Below, piece by piece: positions 1,804 to 4,133 of a DNA stretch of 21,680 nucleotides. Each line of letters starts with the position of its first letter. Position 1 is the stretch's first letter. The notes under the pieces are model-generated. The model saw only the letters and a list, made by a program, of their open reading frames with translations, ran no database searches and was not told the origin of the DNA. This stretch comes from a virus. Both the position numbers and the translations under genes were made by a program. The stretch is from positions 1-21,680 of the IMG/VR virus record IMGVR_UViG_3300047365_000287. One strand, written 5' to 3'.

Positions 1804-2277
1804 TCATTTGAAAAATACCTTAAATCCTAGAGATGTTCTACCACCTTCAAATTCTTTTATGCTGCTTAAGTATTCAGCAAATAATTTTAAATCATTACCA
1901 TACTCAATACCAATAGATCCTAAAGGACCTTCAAAGTTATCTCTACTATCAAACTTTGAGTTATTCACAGATATACCACTATACACCGTAAGATCTTGTG
2001 ATAGTGGTGCTAAAAATTTTACACCTGCATGATTGATACCAGGATGATCATCACACTGCATTGGTGATGAAAGATGTTCAGCAAACAATCTTATATGTGT
2101 GTACATGTCATATTCAATACCAAAGGAACCAGAAGGTTCATGTAAATCAAATTGCTCAGTATCATATGGTTCTATATTGACTCCAATATAGGTTTTAACA
2201 CTATCTGGACTCATAACTCCAAGTATTGCAGTTGTTAGTGTTCCAACAATAGTGCTTGGTCCAATACATAACATCAT
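1804..2277 (-). CDS. Duplicated beta-rich protein, possible small outer-membrane barrel
   Basis: A 157-residue protein. Residues 1-23 are hydrophobic and could be a signal peptide, though without a basic n-region. The rest is two copies of a unit of about 62 residues (about 28-90 and 95-157). Each has a GSFGIEY/GSIGIEY strand, an LFAEHLSS/LFAEYLSS strand and a closing AGVKF/LGFKVFF strand. The alternating polar/apolar pattern, about eight predicted strands and aromatic C-terminus fit a small eight-stranded membrane barrel (OmpX/PagP/PagL size class). The EHLSS segment weakly recalls PagL-like lipid A deacylases, but a PagL-type active site is not evident. The ATG overlaps the stop of the 6PGDH-like gene (TAATG). 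Confidence 0.65.
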   Translation of the reverse strand: MMLCIGPSTIVGTLTTAILGVMSPDSVKTYIGVNIEPYDTEQFDLHEPSGSFGIEYDMYTHIRLFAEHLSSPMQCDDHPGINHAGVKFLAPLSQDLTVYSGISVNNSKFDSRDNFEGPLGSIGIEYGNDLKLFAEYLSSIKEFEGGRTSLGFKVFFK

Positions 2278-2744
2278 TAAACATTACCTGGTGAAAGAGA
2301 TTGGAAAATTTTGGAACATGCATTGACAGCATAGGGTGCTCCATATATTCCAGAGAAGATATATGAGATACCTAACTTACTACAATACTTTTGGAGTTCC
2401 TGACATTTTGTTATGTCACTGGTGCTATGATCAATGATAATATCACCCTCCTCAAGTAAAGGTAACAACTCATCAAGCGTGTCTTCTGCTTTTTGCTCTG
2501 GACATGTCATCTGAAAAATGCCAGGAATCTTACCAGCACTAGTGAACTTCTTGCTATCAGATTTAACTGCCTGAACAAGATACTCTATTGAGGTTACACA
2601 ACCGCTAATGTATCCTGCTTCATATTGTCCACAGGCATTCTCATAGTTGGTACTACTATAACCCCAAACTTCGATACCTTTTTCAATCATACGGCGAGCC
2701 ATACCTTCACCAGTACGACCCAACCCAATCATTCCAACTTTCAT
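2277..2744 (-). CDS. gnd-like: 6-phosphogluconate dehydrogenase-like NAD(P)-binding domain protein, single domain
   Basis: A 155-residue Rossmann-fold protein matching the N-terminal domain of the 6PGDH/3-hydroxyisobutyrate dehydrogenase family. It has the dinucleotide-binding GLGRTG loop (7-12), a GYSST turn after beta-2 (28-32), a DIIIDHSTSD segment (101-110) where 6PGDH has DGGNS, and SGIYGAP (131-137) where the family has its GGV/SGG loop. It stops there. The all-helical C-terminal domain holding the catalytic Lys and the dimer interface is absent, and the next gene starts at once. Cyanophage gnd proteins are normally full length (pentose phosphate pathway, NADPH production). This form probably binds a nucleotide but cannot do the standard decarboxylation alone. 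Whether it is a remnant or a repurposed domain is open. Confidence 0.75.
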   Translation of the reverse strand: MKVGMIGLGRTGEGMARRMIEKGIEVWGYSSTNYENACGQYEAGYISGCVTSIEYLVQAVKSDSKKFTSAGKIPGIFQMTCPEQKAEDTLDELLPLLEEGDIIIDHSTSDITKCQELQKYCSKLGISYIFSGIYGAPYAVNACSKIFQSLSPGNV

Positions 2745-2831
2745 TTACTTTCCTCTATATCTTACTGGCCATGTTATATGCATTCCAACTGTTAGTAATG
2801 TAATAAATCCAAAGACAAATAATGTACTCAT
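2745..2831 (-). CDS. 28-residue single-TM microprotein downstream of petE
   Basis: The ATG at 2829-2831 overlaps the petE stop codon (ATGA), and the TAA at 2745-2747 directly abuts the ATG of the 6PGDH-like gene, so the frame exactly fills the space between two recognised genes. The peptide starts MSTLFVFGFITLLTVGMH, a single hydrophobic helix, and ends in a basic tail (WPVRYRGK). The basic C-terminus suggests C-in topology by the positive-inside rule. I do not recognise the family. Position directly after plastocyanin suggests a thylakoid or electron-transfer role, but that is inference. Confidence 0.65.
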   Translation of the reverse strand: MSTLFVFGFITLLTVGMHITWPVRYRGK

Positions 2832-3151
2832 TCTACATGTACCGTTCCAGTCATACCAGCACCTTGGTGAGGACCACAGAAAAAGTTGTAATCTCCCACA
2901 TCAGCAAATACAACGTCTTGTGATTCTCCAGGAGCAAACAATAGTGATTCTCTAGAAAGATCAGGACGTGCCTCTACAATAATATTATGTGGAGGTAGTG
3001 ATTCATTAATAAAATGAACCGTATCACCTGCAGAGATTGTGATCTCATTCGGTGAGAATGCCAGGTTGCCATTAGCACCCATTGATACATCTACTGCCCA
3101 TGATGGAGCAGCAAAAAATAGTGCAATCAAAGTTGCAATTATAAATTTCAT
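2828..3151 (-). CDS. petE: Plastocyanin, phage-encoded electron carrier
   Basis: A 107-residue precursor. Residues 1-19 are a signal peptide (basic start, hydrophobic core, cleavage probably after SWA), which would send the protein to the thylakoid lumen. The mature part of about 88 residues is a cupredoxin with the full type-1 copper set: H55 in PPHNI, C92 and H95 in FFCGPH, and M100 in GAGM. Plastocyanin carries electrons from cytochrome b6f to photosystem I or to terminal oxidases. PetE is a known auxiliary metabolic gene of marine T4-like cyanophages and probably helps keep electron flow going during infection. The ATG overlaps the stop of the 55-residue gene by ATGA, and the stop overlaps the 28-residue gene in the same way. 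Confidence 0.95.
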   Translation of the reverse strand: MKFIIATLIALFFAAPSWAVDVSMGANGNLAFSPNEITISAGDTVHFINESLPPHNIIVEARPDLSRESLLFAPGESQDVVFADVGDYNFFCGPHQGAGMTGTVHVE

Positions 3152-3315
3152 TTCGCTACAGAATGTTGTTCTTTGTAAGTGTTGAGTTTTTGAATTAAAT
3201 CGTTATACTCGTCCCACATGTATTCAGAACCCGTCTTCTCTTGATAGAGTTGGCAGGCTTTAACTAAACGTGTGATGTCGCTGTCGTTTAAACGCATTGT
3301 CATATCAGAACTCAT
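3148..3315 (-). CDS. Conserved-looking small protein, 55 residues
   Basis: Translation from the ATG at 3313-3315 gives a 55-residue soluble, mostly helical protein with the segment LNDSDITRLVKACQLYQEK and an acidic SEYMWDEYNDLIQKL stretch. The stop overlaps the petE ATG (ATGA), so the two are probably translationally coupled. In-frame Met residues at positions 5 and 7 are alternative starts. I have an impression that similar short proteins occur in cyanomyoviruses, but I cannot verify it. Function unknown. It is the first gene of the accessory chain. Confidence 0.65.
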   Translation of the reverse strand: MSSDMTMRLNDSDITRLVKACQLYQEKTGSEYMWDEYNDLIQKLNTYKEQHSVAK

Positions 3316-3378: not shown

Positions 3379-3694
3379 AGCAATTCCACGCACGAAGTGA
3401 TTTATTGATACGACTATCTTTGTCGTTAGCAGTTTTCTTACTGGTCAACTTCTTTTTCATGCCCTTCATTCGAGCGCAGAAGGATGCCCTCCTGGGATTT
3501 CCAGCCTTCTTGCTTGGTGCCTTAAGGTCAGATCCTGGATTTTCCTTTTCATAAGATTTTCGTCCTTTTTCATTGAGTCCTCCAGATTTTTTCTTTCCTT
3601 CTTTTCTTGTCCAGGCTGATTCGTCAAGTTGATTGCCGGTATTCTGCGCCGTTCTCACCTCACATAAGTTCCTAAACTCTTTAAAATTTTTCAT
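3377..3694 (-). CDS. Small basic protein, DUF6321-like
   Basis: A 105-residue, Lys/Arg-rich protein with the conserved-looking block WTRKEGKKKSGGLNEKGRKS (29-48), ENPGSDLKAP, RRASFCARMKGMKKKLTS and a C-terminal SRINKSLRAWNC. I recall this combination from the DUF6321 family of marine T4-like phages and some algal viruses. Strong basicity and the late-gene position fit a nucleic-acid-associated or virion-packaged protein, but no function is established to my knowledge. The ATG at 3692-3694 lies 28 bases from a GATAAATA late-promoter-like box that overlaps the gp16 stop codon. It is followed by 61 bases with no gene before the accessory operon. Confidence 0.75.
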   Translation of the reverse strand: MKNFKEFRNLCEVRTAQNTGNQLDESAWTRKEGKKKSGGLNEKGRKSYEKENPGSDLKAPSKKAGNPRRASFCARMKGMKKKLTSKKTANDKDSRINKSLRAWNC

Positions 3695-3730: not shown

Positions 3731-4133
3731 TCTTTCCACCGCTCATATCTTTGAGCATCTTCTGTAGTTCTGATGTAGATCCTACAAACATTGCATTGTT
3801 AGTGACTTTAGATGGACCTTTCTTGTCTTCATCTAGATCCTTCATCTTCTTATGAAGGTCTTGTAGTTTCTCAGTCATGTCTGCAACATGCTTCATTGCC
3901 GCTACAGCAACTTCATACGCTCTCGGATGCCCAGATTCTTGAGCAACCTCTAAGGCACCTCTGACCGCCTCCTGACCGTGATCGATCAAAGAGTATAGTT
4001 CTCCCCTTGTGTACTCATAATCTTTTGTACGGTCATCCTGGTTCTTCTCAGGGGGTTTTGGTTTGCTTGGTTTGCTTTCTACAACCTCAGCATCAATGTT
4101 AAGAATGTCTTCCATGTTTTCTTCTAAACTCAT
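3726..4133 (-). CDS. 16: Terminase small subunit gp16
   Basis: A 135-residue homologue of the T4 gp16 DNA-packaging protein, which forms a ring, recognises the DNA and stimulates the gp17 ATPase/nuclease. After an acidic, Pro/Lys-rich start (1-35) comes the conserved helical core with DYEYTRGELYSLIDHGQEAV (38-57) and HPRAYEVAVAAMKHVADMTE (68-87), a coiled coil of Lys/Asp/Glu (88-105), and a tail with TNNAMFVGSTSELQKMLKD. T4 gp16 is 164 residues; cyanophage forms are shorter, like this one. The ATG overlaps the gp15 stop (ATGA). In T4 gene 17 follows at once; here a basic protein and the accessory block follow instead. Confidence 0.85.
   Translation of the reverse strand: MSLEENMEDILNIDAEVVESKPSKPKPPEKNQDDRTKDYEYTRGELYSLIDHGQEAVRGALEVAQESGHPRAYEVAVAAMKHVADMTEKLQDLHKKMKDLDEDKKGPSKVTNNAMFVGSTSELQKMLKDMSGGKR

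Follow-up and report, generated by a model that had tools for sequence, protein, structure and literature searches.

Results

The window, a virus record of 21,680 bases, carries on its minus strand a 55-aa ORF, petE, a 28-aa ORF and a short gnd in this order (Table 1). Two ATGA overlaps, at 3151-3148 between the 55-aa gene and petE and at 2831-2828 between petE and the 28-aa frame, join the first three, and the TAA stop codon of the 28-aa frame abuts the ATG of the short gnd at 2744 (TAA directly followed by ATG, 'AGAGGAAAGTAAATG'). The original prediction had placed these junctions correctly. The purine-rich AGAGGA in the RGK codons at the end of the micropeptide gene could serve as ribosome site for the short gnd. 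A scan for sigma-70 promoters yielded matches no more frequent than in shuffled sequences.

Table 1. Features of the petE locus in the window
Feature	Position	Strand	Evidence
28-aa micropeptide gene	2745..2831	(-)	ORF, overlaps, relatives, selection, hydropathy and charge; sequence MSTLFVFGFITLLTVGMHITWPVRYRGK
ATGA, petE stop and micropeptide start	2828..2831	(-)	same 4-base overlap in 80/122 placed copies
petE, plastocyanin, 107 aa	2828..3151	(-)	phrog_515; PF00127, E 4e-20
55-aa gene, known hypothetical protein, T4-GC_850-like	3148..3315	(-)	phrog_5190, E 1e-30
short gnd, 155 aa, NAD-binding domain of 6-phosphogluconate dehydrogenase	2277..2744	(-)	phrog_3646; PF03446
last micropeptide codons AGAGGAAAGTAA with Shine-Dalgarno-like AGAGGA, putatively for short gnd	2745..2758	(-)	sequence; role inferred

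The copper-site segments of PetE (PHN ... CGPHQGAGM) look intact in the sequence. Since the protein starts with an apparent signal peptide (MKFIIATLIALFFAAPSWA, judged by eye), the 28-aa peptide would not be needed as a thylakoid anchor for PetE export, one of the roles originally considered for it. Both tiny genes flanking petE had been taken as unannotated. This holds for the 28-aa frame, but the 55-aa gene is, judged by its match to phrog_5190, not new; it is annotated in S-MbCM7 (similar to T4-GC_850) and in ACG-2014i, and was present at 48 of the 84 petE loci examined, with a -4 overlap with petE in 34 of these 48. The order petE-peptide-gnd recurs in contigs L120 and L174, whose petE is 65% identical to that of the window, compared to 88-92% for their short gnd, and it seems that petE was swapped amid conserved neighbours. 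Other close relatives have the order petE-phrog_1096-peptide-gnd, or petE followed immediately by gnd only a few bases away.

The short gnd lacks the catalytic domain; the phrog_3646 profile comprises 158 positions, and S-MbCM100 has an annotated gnd of this short form too. It is a conserved half-enzyme. Farther along the minus strand, a 157-aa ORF (1804-2277) with no PHROG match contains several GSxGIEYxxxxxLFAEYLSS-like repeats, perhaps the strands of a small beta-barrel, and shares an ATGA overlap with an apparently membrane-spanning 43-aa ORF (1676-1807, phrog_2173) on the same strand.

Relatives of the 28-aa peptide were found by tblastn in 259 of 50,697 phage records (E up to 10), every one a cyanophage, and with two consensus versions in 255 records (E up to 1). 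A DNA-pattern scan of IMG/VR added at least 119 further stretches. Searching the petE loci with a profile brought another 48 ORF matches, most of them belonging to a second subtype with TW(P/S)VKNK at its end. It had been proposed to look for a frame directly after petE at other petE loci. Such an arrangement is rare; the 48 further matches lay mostly at petE loci, 50-2000 bases downstream, and a conservation test limited to the codons directly after petE would have misled. After removal of identical sequences 133 distinct copies remained.

The dN/dS check suggested along with the original prediction was run on 116 distinct codon strings. The median dN/dS of nearer pairs was 0.36 and the overall pN/pS 0.38; the two other frames gave ratios of 1.0 and 1.4 and are interrupted by stops in 95% and 48% of the same strings. 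The 28-aa frame is thus under purifying selection at the protein level, in this frame. Translation follows from this selection by inference, and on these sequence grounds the frame is a functional gene.

No model in Pfam, NCBIfam or PHROGs fits the micropeptide (best PHROG E 0.025-0.03), and no PDB chain matched the single peptide or the profile at E up to 10, in searches that can miss sequences this short. A motif scan of 84,980 species for a host origin gave 32 scattered matches, none in cyanobacteria. Among the matches listed, most copies lie under no annotated feature or only under the end of a neighbouring gene; an annotated exception is the hypothetical protein SShM2_046 (T4-GC 1105) of S-ShM2. 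One contig (L163) holds two divergent paralogues, at 1949-2044 and 3883-3966, which end in WPGRYRG and WPTKNPKFKK. Another (L014, ~3500-3592) bears a decaying copy whose sequence diverges once the helix is past (ITWSMNWV) and is followed by remains of the former end.

The micropeptides are 22-33 residues long, mostly 27-28, and follow the consensus LFVFxFxxLLxxxMxLTWPxRYRG, a single hydrophobic helix whose C-terminus is basic. F9 never varies, and F5, F7, L12, M17, T20, W21 and P22 are nearly invariant. The mean hydropathy of the best 17 residues has a median of 2.4, and the net charge is 0 over the first five residues and about +2.3 from residue 21 on. Hydropathy and charge bias, read by the positive-inside rule, predict a single membrane helix with the C-terminus in the cytoplasm. 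The low-entropy positions 5, 9, 13, 17 and 21 line up in one strip; periodicity of the entropy is highest at 90-100 degrees, with the moment peak at 90 and a permutation p of 0.06 at 100, which suggests that the strip may be a packing face.

Upstream genes were identifiable for 122 copies, a sample skewed by the way of collection to petE loci and the RYRG subtype, and fall into 19 similarity groups: PTOX (29), zwf (27), phrog_1096, a 73-aa membrane protein (21), endonuclease (11), phrog_2075 (10), petE (4), talC (2), nrdB (1) and others, including DUF1825, an HNH endonuclease and a 2OG-Fe oxygenase. The peptide starts by an ATGA overlap with the upstream gene in 80 of these copies and by a one-base overlap in 13; as background, 15% of ORFs of at least 100 aa overlap an ORF of at least 25 aa in the ATGA manner in five cyanophage genomes. 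Direct adjacency of petE and peptide was seen in about four contigs only. Among 17 complete genomes the two lie within 12 kb in 11 and 57-75 kb apart in 6; membership of the cassette of petE, PTOX, zwf, gnd and endonuclease holds in the window and in those 11. The peptide of S-SSM5 lies between DUF1825 and gp32, and that of ACG-2014d behind nrdB.

Some neighbourhoods show further features. In S-RIM12 RW_06 (L521, 3126-4420) a glycine-rich tail-fibre-like gene with a late-promoter-like box (TATAAATA) stands between the peptide and gp17, and the last codons of the peptide recur beyond it, which looks like an insertion of the gene by recombination. S-B43 (L530, near 212,069) lacks petE and carries the peptide twice, the second time directly after an HNH homing-type endonuclease. 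In S-SCSM2R (L082, 4408-4542) a gene near zwf, gnd and the peptide has the annotation NdhP, which denotes a small NDH-1 subunit, and is thus a further case of a cyanophage gene for a small component of a photosynthetic complex.

Of the first 26 records searched with the profile, 19 had peptide and petE together, and the 7 that lack petE also lacked the peptide; a weak match in P-HM2 (E 0.02) was gone with a better profile. Nine further isolates were added, seven of them picked as likely exceptions. The peptide was then present in 22 of 25 petE-positive and 2 of 10 petE-negative large myovirus-type records (Fisher p 0.0003, host uncontrolled), counts that the hand-picked exceptions bias against the link and that phage relatedness could bias either way. 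S-RIM2 and S-CAM9 have both genes, and P-SSM7 and P-RSM4 neither. S-CAM1, S-SSM4 and ACG-2014f have petE without the peptide, and a search of their whole sequences for divergent copies gave none above the noise of petE-negative phages. The peptide without petE was seen in S-RIM12 RW_06 and S-B43. By tblastn, 413 records matched petE or the peptide and a query with petE alone matched 401, which leaves about 12 that carry the peptide but no petE. Sampling of petE-negative phages from IMG/VR by the capsid gene gave mostly short contigs.

On a gp23 tree of 32 rows the peptide was associated with petE (p 0.001), and an association with PTOX (p 1.0), zwf (0.43) or CP12 (0.22) instead was rejected in this sample. 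Both petE and the peptide change about eight times on the tree, with clustering no greater than for shuffled labels; about four of seven independent pairs were concordant and none discordant, a count too small for significance. With the petE status taken from Table 3 of PMC3037559, the peptide was found in 8 of 8 petE-positive and 0 of 5 petE-negative scored phages (p 0.0008; the entries for Syn1 and Syn33 rest on tblastn only). petE is commoner in Synechococcus phages (PMC3037559), and within Synechococcus isolates alone the association had p 0.18. The host is therefore an uncontrolled confounder of the petE link. Since the petE of the window is 92% identical to petE of phages carrying the other peptide subtype, there is no tight co-evolution of petE and peptide.

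Discussion

The 28-aa frame belongs to a micropeptide family that is carried by most marine T4-type cyanophages, almost never annotated and found mainly in plastocyanin-carrying phages; its range comprises T4-like cyanophages and S-TIM5. That the perfect fit of the gene chain is unlikely by chance was right, as relatives in 255-259 cyanophage records, selection and the recurrence of the petE-peptide-gnd order in L120 and L174 indicate. The prediction of a real single-helix membrane-peptide gene below gene-calling limits was right as well. Both the gene status and the membrane character are well supported. The frame could instead go untranslated and simply result from leader or spacer DNA in which the following gene has its Shine-Dalgarno site. 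Although the AGAGGA of the window does lie in the last codons before the short gnd, this is hardly credible for a frame with a dN/dS of 0.36 that is open in this phase only, retains its ATG at the overlap in 80 copies and codes for the same protein even where the genes that follow it are unrelated.

The presence mainly with plastocyanin suggests that the peptide helps phages to rewire host photosynthesis. Most likely, it is a single-helix membrane peptide with an accessory part in photosynthetic electron transport as modified by the phage, and as best explanation we propose, with a probability of roughly 40%, a membrane micropeptide gene that tunes electron flow where the phage plastocyanin works. 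Its translation would be coupled to that of the upstream gene or re-initiate behind it, and the peptide would insert as one helix, with the N-terminus outside (lumen or periplasm) and the basic WPxRYR tail in the cytoplasm. The conserved strip F5-F9-L13-M17-W21 might then pack against a membrane protein belonging to the electron chain of photosynthesis or respiration and tune electron flow at the plastocyanin section (cytochrome b6f, photosystem I or a terminal oxidase). The peptide would thus act much like the small one-helix subunits of these complexes, though by sequence it is none of them. This choice of partner complexes is derived from the size of the peptide, its probable topology and its neighbours PTOX, zwf and petE. 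A role in lysis or as holin was set aside, because several phages of this group do without the gene.

That the peptide is functionally linked with plastocyanin is likely, though short of settled. Of the dedicated petE partner that had been postulated, a probable link by genome co-occurrence stands, but a positional tie does not, given adjacency in about four contigs and 19 upstream groups. A farther-reaching idea, in our estimate rather unlikely, is that the uncatalogued 28-residue family represents virus-made small subunits of the host photosynthetic electron chain, functionally paired with phage plastocyanin and kept together with it by selection though scattered.

Other explanations accept the micropeptide as real and differ in why it accompanies petE. 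It could have a general role in host takeover, such as modulation of membranes or proteases, defence or superinfection, and co-occur with petE via a gene pool shared by Synechococcus phages. The many different upstream genes, the exceptions in both directions, the enrichment of petE in Synechococcus phages (PMC3037559) and the p of 0.18 within this host group agree with a general role, which we consider possible. However, P-SSM2, isolated on Prochlorococcus, has both genes and S-PM2, isolated on Synechococcus, neither, the gp23-tree neighbours S-SSM5 and P-RSM4 differ in both petE and peptide, and the peptide does not track PTOX, zwf or CP12. Protein-level selection also argues against a mere passenger of the mobile carbon-metabolism cassette (petE, PTOX, zwf, gnd and the endonuclease T4-GC228) that is kept by linkage with modest benefit to the phage. 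The cassette itself is described in PMC3037559, the peptide often follows PTOX, zwf or the GC228 endonuclease, and proximity to petE within 12 kb in 11 of 17 genomes would fit a passenger. But an association with PTOX or zwf is absent, and the peptide is already retained in unlinked genomes, lying far from petE in 6 of 17, S-SSM5 and ACG-2014d among them. Due to the 57-75 kb separation in these six, cassette linkage alone does not explain the co-occurrence, and we regard a passenger as quite improbable.

The reason why phages carry plastocyanin was left open (PMC2984593), and a micropeptide active in electron transport would offer a small testable handle on it. T4-like cyanophages belong to the marine viruses that have been studied best, and metabolic reprogramming by viruses is commonly illustrated with their photosynthesis genes; here a protein in several hundred sequenced isolates is almost without annotation and has no family model. 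Its gene spreads by attachment to the stop codons of many different genes.

Small subunits of cytochrome b6f and the photosystems (PetN, PetL, PetG, PsaI, PsaM, PsbT and others) comprise about 25-40 residues with one membrane helix and are often missed by gene calling. The micropeptide is likewise tiny with a predicted single helix, but differs from them in that it matched no PDB chain and its motif no cyanobacterium among the 84,980 species. Unnamed ORFs in a few phages and SShM2_046 of S-ShM2 (T4-GC 1105) are the nearest recorded entries; SShM2_046 corresponds to the peptide with an N-terminal extension of ~10 residues and was entered as a lone hypothetical protein, with no family recognised. 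In the part of PMC3037559 used here, in which annotation is based on GeneMarkS and the mobile cassette of T4-like cyanophages comprises petE, PTOX, zwf, gnd, T4-GC119 and an endonuclease, no mention of the peptide was found, and as the literature search covered open papers, an earlier notice is possible. Like the genes of this cassette, the peptide usually lies inside it, behind PTOX, zwf or the endonuclease, and in the window between petE and gnd. Unlike them, it also occurs alone far away and tracks petE, not PTOX or zwf. The peptide is therefore best seen as an overlooked member of the cassette that also travels alone.
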